A stretch of DNA of 64,000 nucleotides from an uncultured Pelagibacteraceae bacterium (lineage in GTDB: Bacteria; Pseudomonadota; Alphaproteobacteria; Pelagibacterales; Pelagibacteraceae): assembly GCA_902623975.1 (NCBI GenBank), contig CACNVR010000005.1:1-64000 (forward strand), given 5' to 3'. Under the pieces are notes generated by a model, which was not told the DNA's origin, ran no database searches, and worked only from the letters and a program-made list of their open reading frames with translations. This document shows, piece by piece, positions 9,128 to 61,395 of this stretch. Positions within the stretch are counted from its first letter, which is position 1, and each line of letters opens with the position of its first letter. The position numbers and the translations under genes are program-made.

Positions 9128-9771
9128 GAGATTTTTTTTTTTATTTTTTTTATATTCAATATAAATGATTCTTCATTAGTTATACTTTTCTTTTCCTCGT
9201 AATCTAAATCCCATTCTTTTAATGTTTCATTTAAAATTTTTTTTCCACTTTTACCCATAAAAAAAATTAAATTCTTATACTTTTGAAAATTTTCATTTAC
9301 TAAATTTAAGATTATTGGCATTGGTTTAAATGCTCTAGACATGACTGTACCTGTTTCAATATTTTTTATTTGAAAAATATCTTTTTGAATAATTTCTGTG
9401 TTCAATTTTAATTTTTTTGAAACCTCCTTTAAAAAAACACATTTATGGTAGCTTTTTTCAAAAAGATTAATTTTCATTTTTTTTTTTAAATTTTTCATCA
9501 CGATTGCAACTATTAGGCCAGGCATACCTCCTCCAGTTCCTAAATCTGAGGTTGTATTGCAATTTAAATCAACAAAATCAACTATTTGTGCCGAATCAAT
9601 TATATGTCTTTCTCTTATCTCCTGTTTTTTCTCTATTTTTTTGCTAATTAAGTTAATTTCCTTATTTTTTTGCTGAATCATTGAAATTAGGCTCTCAAAC
9701 TCATTACAAGTTTCACGTGAAACATTTAATTTAAATATTTTAGAATAAGAATTATAAATTACGTTATCCAT
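9124..9771 (-). CDS. rsmG: 16S rRNA (guanine-N7) methyltransferase RsmG
   Basis: A 215-residue Rossmann methyltransferase (GidB) that methylates G527 of 16S rRNA using SAM. The SAM-binding motif is DLGTGGGMPG (76-85), preceded by RERHIIDS, and VMSRAFKPM lies in the C-terminal half. Near the N-terminus NVSRET (16-21) is encoded by DNA that is also a near-perfect parS palindrome, a dual-use arrangement known from other alphaproteobacterial gidB genes. It abuts mnmG (1-bp overlap) and parA (4-bp overlap). Confidence 0.95.
   Translation of the reverse strand: MDNVIYNSYSKIFKLNVSRETCNEFESLISMIQQKNKEINLISKKIEKKQEIRERHIIDSAQIVDFVDLNCNTTSDLGTGGGMPGLIVAIVMKNLKKKMKINLFEKSYHKCVFLKEVSKKLKLNTEIIQKDIFQIKNIETGTVMSRAFKPMPIILNLVNENFQKYKNLIFFMGKSGKKILNETLKEWDLDYEEKKSITNEESFILNIKKIKKKIS
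9709..9724. other. parS centromere-like site inside rsmG
   Basis: aGTTTCACGTGAAACa contains the perfect 14-bp palindrome GTTTCACGTGAAAC (9710-9723) and matches the widely conserved 16-bp parS consensus TGTTTCACGTGAAACA at 15 of 16 positions. It lies in the coding sequence for VSRET of RsmG, two genes upstream of parB and about 9 kb from the proposed origin. ParB is expected to load here. I found no second full match in the window. Confidence 0.85.
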
Positions 9772-11642: not shown

Positions 11643-11754
11643 AGTATAAATTTATATTTGATTTTAATATTTACAAGATTTGAGTTTTTATTTTAAAATA
11701 AGCCTTAATTAGTAAGAAAAGTGAGAAAAAACGTTATTAACAAATAAGATTAAA

Positions 11755-13153: not shown

Positions 13154-14713
13154 ATGGAAAATGTAGAATATCTCAAGAAACAAACCTCTATTTTGATTAA
13201 TCTTTATAATGCTAAACGATTTGAAGATGTTGTTTCAAAAGGAAAAATATTAATAAAGAAATTTCCAAACCAACTATTATTTTATAATGCTACATCTTTA
13301 TCTCTATCTGCTATCGGGAAAGATGAAGAGGCATTAAAAATTTTAGCACAAGCTTTAAGTCAACAAAATAATAATATTCATGTTTTAAATAATTTAGGAT
13401 TGATAAATGGCAATCTCAACAAAAATAAAATAGCTAGAGAGTATTTTGATAAAGCTTTATTAATAAATGAAAATTTTATAGATACTCTAGTGAATTTAGC
13501 TAATTTGAACTTGAAAGAGAATAGAATTCAAGAAGCAAAAGAGTGTTTAGATAAAGCAGCTAAGACAAGCAAAATTCCAGAGACAGATATAATAATTTAT
13601 TCTGCTCTAGGTCAATATTATCAGCATATAGGAAACTTCAAAGAAGCTATAAATTGTTTTAACATTGTAAATAAATTAAATCCTGAAAATGTAATAGCTG
13701 ATAAAGGCATCAGTCTTATTCATAAATATAAAAATAAAGATGATGAACATCTTAAATTAATGGAAGGGAAACTGAATAAGATTAATGATAAAGAGAATTT
13801 ACAGCATTTATTTTTTGCCCTAGGTAAGGCGTATGAAGATTTGAACGAATACAAAAAATCTTTTGAATATTTAAACAAAGCAAATGAAATCGCTGATAAA
13901 AAATTTAGCTTCGATATTAATGAGCAAAATGAATTATTTAACAATATTAAGAAACTTTTCCAAAATTTGGATATGTCAAAAATACTACAATCTAGTCAAA
14001 AAATTATATTTATAGTAGGTATGCCTCGATCAGGGACGACATTAGCTGAACAGATACTATCATCACATAAAAAAGTTTATGGTGCAGGAGAGTTATCATT
14101 TCTAGAGTTTGCAGTTAAGGATAACTTAATGCGTGATAAAAAGTTTTTAACTATAGAAAATGAGGATTTAAATTTTAAAAATTTGTCTAATATTCAGAAT
14201 GAATATTTACAAGGAATTTCCTCATTTAATCATGAAGAACAGTATATTATTGATAAAGCACCACTTAATTTTAAATGGATTGGAATAATAAAGCTAATTT
14301 TTCCAGAAGCAAAGATTGTGCATTGTAAAAGAGATGCGATGGATGTTTGTTTTTCAAACTTTAAAAATAATTTTTCATCAAAAACAATAGGGTTTTCATT
14401 TAATCTTCAAAAGCTTGGTCAGTATTTTAATTTATACTCTGATCTAATGATGTTTTGGAAGGAAATATTTAAGGATGAGATATTTGATCTCTCCTATGAA
14501 GAACTTATATCCAATCAAGAAGAAACTACCAAAAAATTGCTGAATTTCTGTAATTTAGAGTGGGACCCTAACTGCTTAAGCCCTCATAAAAACACAAAAA
14601 CAGTTTCTACAGCTAGTCTGGCTCAAGTAAGATCCCCTGTTTATAAATCATCAATAAAAAAATGGGAAAAATTTTCAAACGAACTTGGTGAACTTAAAAA
14701 TATAATAAAATAA
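13154..14713 (+). CDS. TPR repeat-sulfotransferase fusion protein
   Basis: A 519-residue two-part protein. Residues about 10-270 are tetratricopeptide repeats (for example VLNNLGLINGNLNKNKIARE and YYQHIGNFKEAINCFN). Residues about 283-519 are a sulfotransferase domain with the PAPS 5'-phosphosulfate loop GMPRSGTT (289-296) and a 3'-phosphate region KIVHCKRDAMDVCFSNF. No signal peptide is seen, so it is probably cytoplasmic, with the TPRs binding a protein or glycan acceptor. The acceptor is unknown. It sits on the opposite strand between rho and mnmE, breaking an otherwise co-oriented block, and ends directly against the rho stop. Confidence 0.85.
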   Translation: MENVEYLKKQTSILINLYNAKRFEDVVSKGKILIKKFPNQLLFYNATSLSLSAIGKDEEALKILAQALSQQNNNIHVLNNLGLINGNLNKNKIAREYFDKALLINENFIDTLVNLANLNLKENRIQEAKECLDKAAKTSKIPETDIIIYSALGQYYQHIGNFKEAINCFNIVNKLNPENVIADKGISLIHKYKNKDDEHLKLMEGKLNKINDKENLQHLFFALGKAYEDLNEYKKSFEYLNKANEIADKKFSFDINEQNELFNNIKKLFQNLDMSKILQSSQKIIFIVGMPRSGTTLAEQILSSHKKVYGAGELSFLEFAVKDNLMRDKKFLTIENEDLNFKNLSNIQNEYLQGISSFNHEEQYIIDKAPLNFKWIGIIKLIFPEAKIVHCKRDAMDVCFSNFKNNFSSKTIGFSFNLQKLGQYFNLYSDLMMFWKEIFKDEIFDLSYEELISNQEETTKKLLNFCNLEWDPNCLSPHKNTKTVSTASLAQVRSPVYKSSIKKWEKFSNELGELKNIIK

Positions 14714-17503: not shown

Positions 17504-18505
17504 TTAATAATCTTTCACCATCTTCACAAGATACTCAACATTAGCAATATTGGTTTCAGGTAAAATTCCATGTCCTAAATTAAAAATATAAGGATGATCT
17601 TTAAATATATCTAAATATCTAGTTGCTTCCTTTTTTAAATTTTTAATATCCGTTAATAAGATTTTCGGGTCTAATCCACCTTGAACAGGTATTTGAATAT
17701 TTTTTCTTATGTATAAAGGGTCAACTTCATAATCAATACAGATTGCGTCTGGTTTTACAATATCACAATAATTTTTGTAATCTTTAATCCCTCTTGGAAA
17801 ACAAATTACTGGTACACCTAAAGATTTCACATAATCAACTAAATTTAAAGTAGGAATATAAACGTAGTTAGGTAAGTCTTTTTGATCTAATAATCCAGCC
17901 CAACTATCAAAAATTTGTATTATATCAGCCCCATTATCGATTTGATTTTTTATATGAACTTTTAAAAACTTTTCTAAAATAATTAGAATTCTATTTAATA
18001 AAAAATCATCTTTGTAAAACGTATCTATTAATTGCTTCTTAGGTGATTGTTTATTAATCATATAAACAAGCAAAGTCCATGGAGCTCCAACAAAACCTAT
18101 AATATTTTTATTTTTAGTTAATGGATTCTTTTTTATTAAATTTAAAGTTTTATAAATAGGAAAAATTCTTTGAACAAAATCTATTTCATCTAATTCAGAC
18201 ATTTCTTTTAAATTTAAGTCTCCTAACAAGGGTCCAAAACTTTTTTTAAATTCTACTTTTTGATTCAATCCATAAGGGACCATTAAAATGTCTGAAAAAA
18301 TAATTGCTGCATCTAAATCAAATCTTTTCAAAGGTTGTAATGTTATTTCTGATGATAAATCAGGATTTAAGCATAATTTTATAAAATCGGTGTTTTTTGA
18401 TCTAATTTCTCTGAATTCTGGCAAATATCTACCGGCTTGCCTCATTATCCAAATTGGATTAATAGAGGTTTTTTTATTTATTAAAACATCATTCAATAAA
18501 CTCAT
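17504..18505 (-). CDS. hemE: uroporphyrinogen decarboxylase
   Basis: A 333-residue TIM-barrel enzyme that decarboxylates uroporphyrinogen III to coproporphyrinogen III. The N-terminal signature is PIWIMRQAGRYLPEFR; FSDILMVPYGL, GFVGAPWTLLVYMI, QIFDSWAGLL and FNLGHGILPET follow in canonical order. hemE flanks the replication origin in Caulobacter and Rickettsia, and here too it borders the largest gene-free AT-rich stretch of the window. It heads the leftward hemE-hemH-hemJ group. Confidence 0.98.
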   Translation of the reverse strand: MSLLNDVLINKKTSINPIWIMRQAGRYLPEFREIRSKNTDFIKLCLNPDLSSEITLQPLKRFDLDAAIIFSDILMVPYGLNQKVEFKKSFGPLLGDLNLKEMSELDEIDFVQRIFPIYKTLNLIKKNPLTKNKNIIGFVGAPWTLLVYMINKQSPKKQLIDTFYKDDFLLNRILIILEKFLKVHIKNQIDNGADIIQIFDSWAGLLDQKDLPNYVYIPTLNLVDYVKSLGVPVICFPRGIKDYKNYCDIVKPDAICIDYEVDPLYIRKNIQIPVQGGLDPKILLTDIKNLKKEATRYLDIFKDHPYIFNLGHGILPETNIANVEYLVKMVKDY

Positions 18506-18538
18506 AATATATATATTTATTGTTTAATTAGTATAACT

Positions 18539-18547
18539 TGTGAATAA
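18539..18547 (-). other. consensus DnaA box
   Basis: TGTGAATAA on the plus strand reads TTATTCACA on the minus strand, an exact match to TTATNCACA. It lies 34 bp upstream of hemE within the proposed origin. Confidence 0.5.
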
Positions 18548-18657
18548 TGATAATTAAAAGTTATATACATTTTAATAACAAGATATTCTTTTTTGATTAT
18601 TAATAAATGCTTCAAAATCAACACTTTTTTATTAAATTTAAACATCTTATATATCGG

Positions 18658-18699
18658 TTAATATCTTATTAACATGTTTAATTATGTTAACTAAGTTAG
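18658..18699 (+). repeat. TTAA word array with CtrA-like spacing in the candidate origin
   Basis: TTAA starts at 18658, 18669, 18678 and 18687, and TTAG at 18696, i.e. spacings of 11, 9, 9 and 9. The first pair is an exact TTAA-N7-TTAA, the core of the CtrA-binding motif. In so A/T-rich a sequence each word is individually unremarkable; the regular spacing within the origin candidate is what merits note. Confidence 0.35.
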
Positions 18700-18779
18700 T
18701 TTTATACAGTGGGTTATATTGTTTTAAAAAATAGCGGGTTTAAAAAAAAAATTATACATAATTATAAACAACTTTTACA

Positions 18780-20789
18780 ATGTTAATAAATAAAAAAACG
18801 ATATTAAAAATATTCTTATATTTTATAGGTTTAATCTTAATATTTATATTATTTGAACTTTTCTCTTTTGATAAATATTATATCAATAAATCCTCCATTA
18901 CTTTTAATGTGGATAATGTGCGGAATCCACAAGTTAAAAAAATTGTTAGAACAGTTGATAATTTAGGCGGTGAGCTTTATTTAAATTTAAGTAAAAAAAA
19001 AAAAGATGAATTTTACGAAATTGATTTAGAAAAATATAACAATCTACCAAACGTGGTAGAAATTAAAGTAGATGATAAAAACTTAACGCTTTCAAATAAT
19101 AAAAATGAAAACAACAGCAAAAACTGGCCAAGAAGTCATGGAAATCATTCATCAAACAAGTTTTCTTTATTAGATCAAATTAATTCAAACAATATTAATT
19201 CATTAGATCTCGCATGGACTTATAAATTTTCAAAAAAAGGAGTGGTTCCTGGAAACGCAATATTCTTCGAAGGTAAAATTTATGTGTCCTCACCAGGTAA
19301 ATCATTAATTGCCTTAGACGCTTTAAGTGGCAAAAAAATATGGGAACGAAACACAGAGGGTAAAGCAGCAGTAAGAGGTTTAATGATACACGAAAATAAA
19401 AACATATACTTTTGCGATCAGAAAAATTTAATATCTATTAACTCAAAAGATGGAAATTTAAACTTAAATTTTGGTAATAGTGGTAAAATAAAACTTAAAC
19501 ACAAATGTCAGACAACACCAGTAATTCTTGATAATGAAATAATAATAGCAACTTTTGAACCGGGGATAGAAGTCTATGATTTAGAAAGTGGAAAAATAAG
19601 ATGGAAATATTTTTTAAAAGAAAAAAACAAAGAATTCTTCAGATATGGAGGTAAAAGATATGACTACTCTGGTGGAAACCCATGGGGAGGTATATCTGCT
19701 GATACAAACAGGAAAATTGTATATGTTTCAACTGGTAACGCTGGAAGATTTTATGAAGGAACTAGTAGACCAGGTGACAATAAATATTCTAACTCTGTTA
19801 TAGCAATCGACATATCCTCAAAAGAGATGTTGTGGGAATTTCAAGAAATAGCACATGATATATGGAATTATGACATTGCTTCCCCACCAATTCTTACATC
19901 AATTATTAAAGATGGTAAAAAAATTGACGTTGTCATAGCTCCAACAAAATTTGGAAATACACTAGTCTTAGATAGGCTAACTGGAAAAAGTCTTTATGAT
20001 TATAAAAAAATAAAGGTACCATTATCAAAAATACCTGGAGAAAAAACAGCATTTTATCAAAAAAAATTTTCTCTACCTGAGCCTTTTTCTAGACAATTTT
20101 TTAGAAAAAATGATGTAACAAATTTATTCCCAGAGAGCACTGAATTTGTTACTAAAAAAATTAAAAATGCTTCTTATGGTTTTTTTACGCCAAATTCTAT
20201 AAATAAAAAAAATATTGTTTATAAGGGTGGAGCTCAATGGATGGGAGCGAGTGTTGATCATCTTACTGGGACAATGTTTGTAAATTCAAGTGACATACCA
20301 AGTTTCTTGTGGCTAGAAAAAGCAAAAAGTAAAAATTCTTATTATCGTTACAGTTCGAACTTTGAAATTATAAAAGATCAATTTGGCTATCCCGGTTCTA
20401 AGCCTCCATGGGGTAATTTAACGTCAATAAATTTGAATAATGGTAAAATAAATTGGAGAATTCCATTTGGTGAATATGAGGAACTTACAAAGAAGAATAT
20501 ACCTTTAACAGGAACAGTAAACTTTGGTGGAGTAACTGCTACTGCAGGTAATTTAGTTTTTGCCACGGGCACAGTAGATAATAAAGTAAGAGCCTATAGA
20601 GCGACTGACGGTAAAGAATTGTGGAGCTATAAAATGAAATATCTTGGTTCTAGCCCGCCAACTATATTTGAATATAATAATGATCAATATATTTTAGTTG
20701 TTGCAACTGGGAGCCAAACTATTAAATCACAATTTCCTGATCAAACCGAATTTGGTGATATGATGTATGTTTTTAAATTAAAAGATTGA
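18780..20789 (+). CDS. membrane-anchored PQQ-dependent (quinoprotein) dehydrogenase
   Basis: A 669-residue protein with one N-terminal membrane helix (about residues 9-30) followed by about 110 lineage-specific residues and then an eight-bladed quinoprotein propeller starting near NNSKNWPRSHGNHSSNKF. Propeller signatures include SLIALDALSGKKIWE, GGNPWGGISADTNRKIVYVSTGNAG, IAHDIWNYDIASPP, DRLTGKSLYDY and the C-terminal VTATAGNLVFATGTVDNKVRAY. The family oxidises sugars or alcohols in the periplasm, passing electrons to ubiquinone or a cytochrome. The substrate cannot be read from sequence, and no cytochrome domain is present. It directly follows the candidate origin and is not part of the conserved gene order. 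Confidence 0.85.
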   Translation: MLINKKTILKIFLYFIGLILIFILFELFSFDKYYINKSSITFNVDNVRNPQVKKIVRTVDNLGGELYLNLSKKKKDEFYEIDLEKYNNLPNVVEIKVDDKNLTLSNNKNENNSKNWPRSHGNHSSNKFSLLDQINSNNINSLDLAWTYKFSKKGVVPGNAIFFEGKIYVSSPGKSLIALDALSGKKIWERNTEGKAAVRGLMIHENKNIYFCDQKNLISINSKDGNLNLNFGNSGKIKLKHKCQTTPVILDNEIIIATFEPGIEVYDLESGKIRWKYFLKEKNKEFFRYGGKRYDYSGGNPWGGISADTNRKIVYVSTGNAGRFYEGTSRPGDNKYSNSVIAIDISSKEMLWEFQEIAHDIWNYDIASPPILTSIIKDGKKIDVVIAPTKFGNTLVLDRLTGKSLYDYKKIKVPLSKIPGEKTAFYQKKFSLPEPFSRQFFRKNDVTNLFPESTEFVTKKIKNASYGFFTPNSINKKNIVYKGGAQWMGASVDHLTGTMFVNSSDIPSFLWLEKAKSKNSYYRYSSNFEIIKDQFGYPGSKPPWGNLTSINLNNGKINWRIPFGEYEELTKKNIPLTGTVNFGGVTATAGNLVFATGTVDNKVRAYRATDGKELWSYKMKYLGSSPPTIFEYNNDQYILVVATGSQTIKSQFPDQTEFGDMMYVFKLKD

Positions 20790-20790
20790 C

Positions 20791-21420
20791 TTATTTTTTT
20801 TGAAATTTATTTGTAAAAAATTCTTTAATTTTTCGATTTAAACTTCCAATAAAACTTCTTCTGATTAATTTTGGTTTATGATCAATTATTTCCATTCTAT
20901 ACTCAGAGTTTTTTGTTAATGGTATTTGCCATGATTTCCCATATAGAAACTCACATAATTCATTTTGTTTATTAGGAAGTTTTATATAATCAAATTTTTC
21001 ACTTTTTTTGATTGGAAAAATTAAACTTTTTGGGATGTGAAGTGAATGCTCTTCAATATCAATTGAAGATAACCAATTATGTTTTTCAACTATGTAATCT
21101 TTTTTTTTATCGTTAATAAAAAAATAAAAATCAATAAAGGTTTTGGTATCATACTTATTATTTATAAATTGAGTAAAATATTTATTTTCAACCTTTTTGT
21201 TAATTTGAAGATGATTTAATAAACTAATCTTCTCTAATATTTTTTCTTTAAGTTCTATATCTATAAAAAAATCTACATCATCGTCACTTTTGAGAATATT
21301 ATTAGATCTCGTTATTCCAAGAAGTGTCCCATAAAAAATGAAGAAATCAAAATCTTTCAATACTTCTGACACTAATTTAAGATTTTCTAAATTAATCTCT
21401 TCAAGTTTTTTTGTATCCAT
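20791..21420 (-). CDS. LicD-family-like protein (nucleotidyltransferase-like fold)
   Basis: A 209-residue protein whose N-terminal part carries the LicD signature in order: FFIFYGTLLGITRSNNIL (GTLLG at 31-35) and DDDVDFF (acidic residues 46-50), the metal-binding region of these minimal nucleotidyltransferase-fold proteins. Members transfer phosphocholine or related groups to cell-surface glycans, or act in glycosylation; the substrate here is unknown. The C-terminus is basic. It overlaps the upstream methyltransferase by 1 bp, so the two are probably co-transcribed. The pair is strongly A/T-rich and lies where other alphaproteobacteria have no gene between hemE and ppsR. Confidence 0.65.
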   Translation of the reverse strand: MDTKKLEEINLENLKLVSEVLKDFDFFIFYGTLLGITRSNNILKSDDDVDFFIDIELKEKILEKISLLNHLQINKKVENKYFTQFINNKYDTKTFIDFYFFINDKKKDYIVEKHNWLSSIDIEEHSLHIPKSLIFPIKKSEKFDYIKLPNKQNELCEFLYGKSWQIPLTKNSEYRMEIIDHKPKLIRRSFIGSLNRKIKEFFTNKFQKK

Positions 21421-22061
21421 TATATTATTTCTAAAATTATACGAGTTAGGTTTGGGTTATCATTTTTAACAATCGATAGATTTTTTGAGGATTTATTGTA
21501 TTTAATTTTGCAATTTAATTTTGCTTTAATCTTTTTTAAAAATTTTTTATCATCAATTATTCTTCTGAAATGACCTTTTTCAAACTCAACTAATTTATTG
21601 TTTTTTTTTAATTTGATATTTTTAAAAATGAGATCTTTCTTATTTCTAAATTCAAAAAAAACTAATGTTTTTTTCTTTTTAATTTTATTAATTAGTTTGA
21701 ATAATTTATTTTCAGCTACTTCACTGATTGCATGTAAAAAAAATCTTGAATATATAAAATCAAATTTCTCTGTTGTTGTATCTTTTTCTATATCAAAATT
21801 CTTAAATTTAATTTTTTTATTTGAATAAATTAAGTTATTTTTAATAATCTTACTTGAAATATCTATACCCAAAACAGTTAACTTTTTTTTATAAAAATAA
21901 AAACTATCTCTCCCGTTCCCACATCCAATATCTATAATTTTTTTTTCTTTGCGATTTTTACCAATGAATTTCATGGTAAATTTAGCAAAACTAGACTCTT
22001 TTAAAATCTTAACATTGCCATAATAATTGTTCCAATAACTAATAAGTGATTTTTTTTTCAT
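21420..22061 (-). CDS. class I SAM-dependent methyltransferase
   Basis: A 213-residue protein from the ATG at 22061. The SAM motif I is IIDIGCGNGRDS, followed by VLGIDIS (motif II) and FDFIYSRFFLHAI (motif post-II/III). The substrate is unknown. The frame stays open to a TTG at 22109, adding 16 residues, but the ATG start places SYWNNYYG, common at the beginning of such methyltransferases, near the N-terminus. Pairing with the LicD-like gene suggests modification of a surface molecule; this is inference. The composition is very rich in Lys, Asn and Ile, as in low-constraint accessory genes here. Confidence 0.75.
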   Translation of the reverse strand: MKKKSLISYWNNYYGNVKILKESSFAKFTMKFIGKNRKEKKIIDIGCGNGRDSFYFYKKKLTVLGIDISSKIIKNNLIYSNKKIKFKNFDIEKDTTTEKFDFIYSRFFLHAISEVAENKLFKLINKIKKKKTLVFFEFRNKKDLIFKNIKLKKNNKLVEFEKGHFRRIIDDKKFLKKIKAKLNCKIKYNKSSKNLSIVKNDNPNLTRIILEII

Positions 22062-22151
22062 ATTATTTATTTGTATTGAAATTAATTCACCGAGGATTAT
22101 GTTTAACAAATTATTAGTTATATTTATATAGAATATTATTATAAAAAATTA

Positions 22152-22976
22152 ATGAAAAACATTTACCAAATTTATCTTATATCAGACTCGACTGGAGAGA
22201 CACTTGATAGAATTTTTACTGCTATCAAAGCTCAATTCAAAAATATTGAATATAAAATACACACTTACTCATTTACTAGAACAGAAAATCAAATTTTTAG
22301 AATTTTATCTGACGCAGAAAAAGAGGATAATTCAATTATTCTCTATTCTATAGTTGATAGCAACTTAGCCAAGTATCTCGCAAACATTTCAAGTGAAAAA
22401 AAAATACCTTGCTTTGGGATTTTAGGAGATCTTATATTGAGTTTTTCGAAACTTCTTAATCAAAAAGCATCTCATGAACCGAGTGGTCAGTATGCGCTTA
22501 ATGATGAATATTATAAAAGAATTGAAGCTATCCAATTCACAATGAATCATGATGATGGAAATTTGATAAATGATATTAAAAAATCTGATATAATTTTACT
22601 TGGTGTAAGTAGAACTAGTAAGACACCAACAGCTATATACTTAGCTAACAAAGGTTTTAAAACTTCAAACATCCCTTTGGTAAATCAAAATTCTATCCCT
22701 AAAATTCTTAAAGATAATCCAAAATTATCTTGTGTAGTTGGTTTAAGCACTGAACCCGAGAGACTTGTAGATCTTAGAAAAAATAGAATGAATTCACTTA
22801 AAGAAACCGAAAATAAATCATACACAGATCTTGATAAGATTAAGAAAGAAGTTGATGAAGCTAAAAATACTTTTAGAAAATATATGTGGCCAGTAATTGA
22901 TGTCACAAGAAAATCTGTTGAAGAAACAGCTGCCTCAGTAATAAAGATTTACGAAATTTACAAGCAAAATGTTTGA
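22152..22976 (+). CDS. ppsR: pyruvate, phosphate dikinase / PEP synthase regulatory protein (DUF299)
   Basis: A 274-residue bifunctional kinase/pyrophosphorylase that controls PPDK or PEP synthase by reversible phosphorylation of an active-site Thr. The family start YQIYLISDSTGETLD, HEPSGQYALNDEYYKRIEAIQF and the P-loop GVSRTSKT (151-158) are all present, and LRKNRMNSL marks the C-terminal half. It begins the rightward ppsR-maf-aroE-coaE-dnaQ series conserved near alphaproteobacterial origins, and overlaps maf by 8 bp. Confidence 0.93.
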   Translation: MKNIYQIYLISDSTGETLDRIFTAIKAQFKNIEYKIHTYSFTRTENQIFRILSDAEKEDNSIILYSIVDSNLAKYLANISSEKKIPCFGILGDLILSFSKLLNQKASHEPSGQYALNDEYYKRIEAIQFTMNHDDGNLINDIKKSDIILLGVSRTSKTPTAIYLANKGFKTSNIPLVNQNSIPKILKDNPKLSCVVGLSTEPERLVDLRKNRMNSLKETENKSYTDLDKIKKEVDEAKNTFRKYMWPVIDVTRKSVEETAASVIKIYEIYKQNV

Positions 22977-61080: not shown

Positions 61081-61173
61081 ATTCTGAGAAAAATTTGATT
61101 AATTTGTAAAAGAAAATATGACAGATATAAATAATTGTTCTAAGATTCCTTTAAACAATTTTGAAAAATTTTT

Positions 61174-61395
61174 ATGAATAATAAAATTTTTGAATGGGCA
61201 GGAGTAATTACTGCAATTTTGTATTCATTATTTGTAGCTATGAATATTGGGATAGAGTTTTTTGGTTTTTGTTTGTTACTAATTTCGGCAATTTTGATAG
61301 GAATTTGGGCTTATAGGGGTGGTCATAGAGGAATATTATTTTTGCAATTTTTTTATGCTACAGCAGGAATTATTGGAATGTTTAGGTGGTTTTAA
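61174..61395 (+). CDS. small membrane protein, unknown
   Basis: A 73-residue protein with two to three hydrophobic segments: WAGVITAILYSLFVAMNIGIEFFGFCLLLISAILIGIW, then YRGGHRGILFLQFFYATAGIIGMFRW. The GYRGG...Q.FY...GI.G..RW ending is reminiscent of PnuC-like or similar small proteins but gives no function. A 93-bp gap precedes it, holding only a 19-codon frame (61118-61177) that overlaps its start by 4 bp. Its stop overlaps the convergent photolyase-like gene. Confidence 0.75.
   Translation: MNNKIFEWAGVITAILYSLFVAMNIGIEFFGFCLLLISAILIGIWAYRGGHRGILFLQFFYATAGIIGMFRWF

Follow-up and report, generated by a model that had tools for sequence, protein, structure and literature searches.

The window, i.e. 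the whole 64-kb stretch of Pelagibacteraceae DNA analysed here, contains a 274-bp intergenic gap at positions 18506–18779, bounded on the left by the hemE gene (URO-D; 17504–18505, minus strand, PF01208, E 2.7e-83), which starts at 18505, and on the right by the next open reading frame (ORF), which starts at 18780. Leftwards from the gap the best matches are, in order, hemE, ferrochelatase, a UPF0093 (hemJ-type) protein, rho, a TPR-type ORF on the other strand, mnmE, gidA, gidB, parA and parB, with the gidB match lying below the curated cut-off and parA attaining no equivalog cut-off. To the right there are three other genes and then a gene coding for a COG1806/DUF299-type kinase/pyrophosphorylase (22152–22976, plus strand, PF03618, E 4.6e-87; we take PF03618 to be COG1806/DUF299), which is the usual right boundary, followed by maf, aroE and coaE. 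The original prediction described a divergence of gene direction at the gap, almost entirely leftwards between 7.5 and 18.5 kb and mostly rightwards between 22 and 34 kb, which is indeed observed with the exceptions of 13154–14713 on the left and four minus-strand genes at 25.6–30.3 kb on the right. It also placed parAB and a parS site nearby, and this agrees with the best-match parA and parB on the left and with a parS-like site at 9709–9724 (plus strand), which has one mismatch to what we assume to be the parS consensus; the mean number expected at no more than two mismatches is 0.11, and 11 of 100 shuffled sequences hold such a site. The 112-bp gap between gidA and mnmE (11643–11754), with a GC content of 16%, is as A/T-rich as the 274-bp gap.

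The GC content of the 274-bp gap is 16.4% vs 28.5% for the 64-kb window, which places it among the lowest 0.9% of 274-bp windows and is in line with the A/T-rich core noted earlier. The gap was also taken for the largest gene-free stretch, which has to be corrected, as it ranks second when ORFs of at least 80 aa are considered. The largest ORF-free gap of the window is 61081–61391, with a length of 311 bp and a GC content of 26%, and no tRNA was found there. DnaA boxes of the TTATNNACA type are represented in the 274-bp gap by four copies, located at 18539 (minus strand), 18561, 18666 and 18762 (plus strand), which is about ten-fold over chance (0.41 in dinucleotide shuffles, with none of 500 shuffles reaching four). 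The exact box TTATTCACA at 18539–18547 on the minus strand and the tandem boxes 10 bp apart, TTATACATA at 18752 followed by the one at 18762, are present just as first described. Four or more TTATNNACA boxes occur in four of the 2549 sliding 274-bp windows (starts 18501–18651), all overlapping the gap, which is thus the densest cluster of the 64 kb. The strict pattern TTATNCACA provides a weak test, being found once in the gap and likewise in 54 other sliding windows; at least one TTWTNCACA is present in 6% of the shuffles, and a single strict box alone is weak evidence of an origin. A further TTATNNACA-type site, TGTTAATAA, is situated at 18782–18790 on the plus strand within the start of the neighboring PQQ dehydrogenase gene, in agreement with the count of five TTATNNACA boxes in the sliding window starting at 18526.

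In relatives, hemE and the COG1806 gene are direct neighbors separated by a gap of 261–300 bp in 47 of 47 loci, namely 18 of 18 from the same genus (L034–L051) and 29 of 29 named loci (L120–L148). The latter are the best hemE matches with up to 75% identity, 27 of them assigned to Pelagibacteraceae bacterium, one to Candidatus Pelagibacter sp. and one to Candidatus Fonsibacter sp. From these assignments the genome of the window would belong to SAR11. The two genes are 271–283 bp apart in all 29 closest relatives by the COG1806 protein, some of whose genomes are shared with the first 47 loci. Three loci were excluded from the origin set: L052 and L053, which come from another family and have no COG1806 match, and L159, in which the hemE match is in two pieces. 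The split hemE match of L159 (isolate AG-390-C17) suggests a frameshift or a sequencing error. The arrangement of hemE, gap and COG1806 gene is therefore kept in 76 of 76 relatives' loci, which, along with the enrichment and positional conservation of the boxes, supports the replication-origin claim for 18506–18779.

The same two genes are reported to flank the Caulobacter origin and the predicted origin of Rickettsia prowazekii (PMC1914354), so the likeness of the hemE flank to these origins holds for hemE at 17504–18505. Three features of hemE-linked origins given in that source were looked for in the gap. It contains more DnaA boxes than other gaps of the 64 kb when TTATNNACA is used, with the pattern of the source itself, TTATNCACA, giving one box; its A/T content is above that of the 64-kb window, against which it was judged in place of the genome; and it adjoins hemE in the window and both hemE and the COG1806 gene in relatives (PMC1914354).

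The box search in related genomes proposed in the original prediction showed boxes that are enriched and located at fixed columns. Box positions were compared in 74 origins, i.e. the window and 73 distinct relatives' intervals left from the 76 loci after the removal of three that were identical to another; the counts are inflated by shared descent, the relatives not being independent samples. The number of TTATNNACA boxes per origin ranges from one to six, and boxes exceed expectation in 48 of 48 origins. The box TTATTCACA at 18539–18547 (minus strand), hereafter the anchor box, lies at a column where TTATNNACA is found in 54 of 74 origins, most commonly as TGTGAATAA when read on the plus strand (41 of 74). 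It is followed by an 11-bp-spaced array on the plus strand, which starts with the box TTATATACA at 18561–18569 (25 of 74 origins, with AACA pairs at 11 and 22 bp) and continues with a second position at 18572–18580, degenerate in the window (TTAATAACA), and a third at 18583–18591, where the window has no box; TTATNNACA is found at these two positions in 19 and 34 of 74 origins, respectively, the window not among them. The central part contains the box TTATTAACA at 18666–18674 (plus strand, 15 of 74) and an inverted position at 18685–18693 (minus strand), which is degenerate in the window and has TTATNNACA in 49 of 74 origins, again without the window. The right-hand box TTATAAACA at 18762–18770 (plus strand) is shared by 43 of 74 origins. 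The window has therefore retained the conserved boxes at 18539, 18561, 18666 and 18762, while three of the seven positions (18572, 18583 and 18685) are degenerate. AACA core pairs on the plus strand number 42 at a spacing of 11 bp and 32 at 22 bp, as compared to zero to three at each of the 26 remaining spacings in the range 6–33. Box arrays with 2-bp gaps are known in the oriC of E. coli, and the 11-bp array of SAR11 resembles them. Of 18 relatives' loci of 11–19 kb, 16 have no other stretch as rich in boxes as the origin, and in the remaining two (L045 and L050) another stretch ties with it in box number.

On the hemE side of the anchor box there is a DnaA-trio-like element at 18523–18534 (plus strand), separated from the box by a 4-nt spacer (18535–18538) which, according to column frequencies in the 74 origins, is richer in G/C in relatives than the rest of the gap. 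A DnaA-trio module is described as a box, a spacer and repeats of 3′-GAT-5′ on one strand (PMC8287927). The relatives' majority reads TAt TAg TAg TAt and the window TTT AAT TAG TAT, which is partly degenerate. Thymine is found at positions −16, −13, −10 and −7 relative to the anchor box in 95–99% of 74 origins, and adenine at −15, −9 and −6 in 88–95%, with position −12 having adenine in 47% only. The mean trio score is 7.08 of 8 in the 74 origins vs a mean of 3.36 in within-sequence shuffles, the highest of 1000 shuffles being 3.85; the window scores 6 of 8, as two of the eight scored positions are degenerate. Runs of at least three consecutive TAN triplets are present in 29 of the 48 first origins (60%, vs 9% in shuffles) and in none of the 48 on the opposite side of the anchor box; in 23 of the 29 the spacer is 4 nt long. 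In the window, and likewise in 19 of the 48 origins, the longest TAN run is two. Shared descent raises these trio values as well. In 39 other loci, comprising 37 that have both genes and lie outside the origin set as well as L052 and L053, no TAN run above one was seen beside boxes of the TGTG/TGTT type, a result which cannot show absence because the scan covered one box orientation, strict patterns and no more than five boxes per locus.

The rule for a basal unwinding system (BUS) calls for a DnaA box, a spacer of 0–16 bp and at least three in-register NAN triplets (PMC8287927), and the window has the 4-nt spacer followed by TAT, TAG and AAT. Conservation in relatives is the stronger evidence, since NAN is easily matched in A/T-rich DNA and the TAN run of the window is only two. 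From the conserved geometry of box, spacer and trio it is possible to predict the site of strand opening: judging by the trio position, the putative unwinding region is the nearly pure A/T stretch between the hemE start codon and the anchor box (18506–18534), where opening is predicted to be DnaA-dependent. The GC content of 18506–18538 is 9%.

An alternative is that the gap is nothing but promoter DNA for hemE and the divergent gene on its right, with the DnaA boxes regulating transcription. Lying between divergent genes, it must contain their promoters, and DnaA is also reported to double as a transcriptional regulator in Caulobacter (PMC3193534). This is nevertheless a very improbable explanation, because the length, the box positions and the triplet element are conserved in relatives down to 45% hemE identity to the window and the known origin of the class occupies the same place (PMC1914354).

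A shift in GC skew is a further feature of hemE-linked origins (PMC1914354). The reading of the gap as an origin was compared with the skew, which was sampled in one-contig relatives because the genome of the window is in 32 contigs. In G012 (1,343,202 bp; 60 regular stretches of 6 kb, weighted by spacing), the cumulative skew has its maximum at 0.651 Mb and its minimum at 1.164 Mb, 98 kb (7.3% of the chromosome) from the hemE-COG1806 gap at 1.262 Mb. The best fit of the two-arm model falls at 1.280 Mb, at a distance of 18 kb from the gap, whose score is attained anywhere by 18 of 2000 shuffles. With three extra stretches at the locus the minimum becomes 1.295 Mb, a sum which over-weights the locus. 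In G098, sampled with 39 of 40 stretches of 8 kb (one fully masked stretch being skipped), the distances from the gap are 57 kb (3.9%) for the minimum and 51 kb for the two-arm best point. The score of the gap is matched there by 49 of 2000 shuffles and somewhere by 683, and with a sparser sample (19 of 20 stretches usable) the best point moves to a distance of 360 kb. In G314 (40 of 40 stretches), the corresponding distances are 57 kb (4.8%) and 58 kb, with none of 2000 shuffles matching at the gap and 25 somewhere. The skew thus turns in the same region in all three relatives, with sampled minima 4–7% of the chromosome away. As to the proposed refutation by a skew minimum elsewhere, the offsets of 98, 57 and 57 kb fit the region and do not fix the exact place; the skew supports this chromosome region without singling out the gap. 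The skew at four-fold sites in G012 has no clear turn and is too weak to use; gene direction may therefore account for most of the skew. The chromosome of Pelagibacter ubique HTCC1062 is listed among those perhaps divided unequally by origin and terminus (PMC2099444).

These offsets are what would speak for a true origin elsewhere in the region, e.g. beside dnaA or parAB, with hemE and COG1806 being just syntenic. The dnaA gene, which is present and carries an RDHTT signature, is on another contig in the genome of the window; in G012 it is 62 kb from hemE and falls between the locus and the sampled minimum. The dnaA gene of Caulobacter, as we understand it, is likewise not adjacent to the origin. 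An origin elsewhere is highly unlikely, as no 274-bp stretch in the 64-kb window outside those overlapping the gap matches its TTATNNACA count, as scanned within the window.

A Caulobacter-like use of CtrA in addition to DnaA was considered, as one exact TTAA-N7-TTAA motif is present in the gap at 18658 and 48 origins hold 29 such motifs, spread over 23 of them, vs 12.0 in mononucleotide shuffles. The spacing of 7 between TTAA pairs is nevertheless not favored, with 35 in the 74 origins vs 16–66 at the remaining spacings in the range 2–15, and the motif places are not conserved, no more than four of 48 origins sharing a column. Out of the 35, one half is inside a TTWTNNACA box in 11 and both halves in four, so that phased boxes as the cause of the matches are weakly supported. 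With a CtrA model built for Rhodobacterales, which one of 14 controls passes, no protein over the cut-off was found in four of four genomes, namely that of the window and three one-contig relatives. Three of the four Trans_reg_C proteins of the window's genome were scanned against NCBIfam, the fourth match, at a contig edge, being left out, and among the matches listed one PhoB was over the cut-off and none reached that of CtrA. Pelagibacter has also been reported to lack a ctrA orthologue (PMC2877005). Involvement of CtrA is accordingly given very little probability.

CtrA sites were rejected as an origin component for having no conserved place, no favored spacing and no CtrA over the cut-off, and IHF sites for being neither conserved nor enriched. 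There are no IHF-type sites in the window, the strict motif occurs in two of 48 origins (4.6 hits expected in all) and a loose one in seven of 48, with eight hits vs 23.0 expected, although each of the four genomes carries three genes of the HU/IHF family. Neither conserved CtrA sites with a CtrA protein nor an IHF site, as in a CtrA-controlled origin of the Caulobacter type, were found, so by the tests made the origin is not of this type, and both CtrA and IHF appear to have no role in it.

Between the origin and the COG1806 gene the window has a putative 3.4-kb insert (18780–22109) which is not found at this place in the 73 other distinct intervals; it would therefore be unique among the intervals compared, as judged from one assembly. 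It consists of a PQQ-type dehydrogenase gene (18780–20789, plus strand), a gene for a 209-aa protein with a weak match to a cholinephosphotransferase model (20791–21420, minus strand) and a methyltransferase gene (21420–22109, minus strand). No TTATNNACA was seen by eye in the 42 bp before the COG1806 gene (22110–22151), and no direct repeats linking the two edges of the insert were found among 13 repeat families. Relatives of the PQQ dehydrogenase are present in 16 of 300 same-genus genomes, including the window's own (E ≤ 1e-100), those in G007, G209 and G220 being 61–64% identical. Its flanks in the 15 other genomes (about 1.5 kb, more for these three) contain no match to hemE, COG1806, the 209-aa gene or the methyltransferase at E ≤ 1e-3. 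An accessory block inserted at the right edge would have parted the origin from its usual neighbor gene and left the hemE side, with the anchor box and the opening site, intact. If the origin tolerates such a block, this would show that the essential opening machinery is on the hemE side.

Taken together, the conserved place, the boxes, the trio-like element, the A/T richness and the regional skew turn in relatives form the basis for considering 18506–18779 the chromosomal replication origin (oriC) of a Pelagibacteraceae bacterium, of the hemE-linked alphaproteobacterial type, with a probability of roughly 0.9; its activity is predicted. The original prediction does not mention the insert on the right, the trio-like element or the missing signs of CtrA. 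It is quite probable that opening proceeds from the anchor box to the triplets: DnaA would bind the anchor box at 18539 and spread from it, aided by the weaker 11-bp-phased boxes on the right, the filament would extend leftwards onto the trio strand at 18523–18534, and the A/T-rich stretch beside the hemE start would then be opened for helicase loading. Somewhat more tentatively, we lean towards a general model of the SAR11 origin as a stripped-down, DnaA-only origin of about 270 bp, made up of a single anchor box, an opening element of four triplets right at the hemE start and an array phased at 11 bp. CtrA and IHF control would have been lost from its sequence, and in this strain it would tolerate the 3.4-kb block on the right.

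Few groups of bacteria in the ocean are as abundant as SAR11, which is difficult to manipulate genetically. No title describing a SAR11 origin was found among the matches listed in a literature search judged by title. An oriC at the hemE gap is a standard kind of bacterial origin, and the useful part is the fine detail obtained from dozens of relatives. A base-level model over dozens of SAR11 genomes would define the zero point when growth rates are estimated from read depth, provide a site at which DnaA-driven opening can be tested in a lineage that reportedly has no CtrA, and supply a short natural origin with which to build plasmids in laboratory strains.

The origin of Caulobacter crescentus (Cori), described as the only experimentally identified alphaproteobacterial origin as of 2007, has the same flanking genes, DnaA boxes and an A/T-rich stretch, and the origin of Rickettsia prowazekii likewise lies between hemE and COG1806 (PMC1914354). 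In contrast to Cori, the SAR11 gap is shorter and has no conserved CtrA or IHF sites, with no CtrA over the cut-off in the genomes searched. CtrA and IHF sites were reportedly described at the R. prowazekii origin by Brassinga et al. in 2002, whereas such sites are not conserved in SAR11 origins. The predicted SAR11 origin differs from the basal unwinding system of Bacillus subtilis and others in having one anchor box with a weaker array on its far side, and resembles that system in the succession of a box, a 4-nt spacer and in-register triplets fitting 3′-GAT-5′ (PMC8287927).
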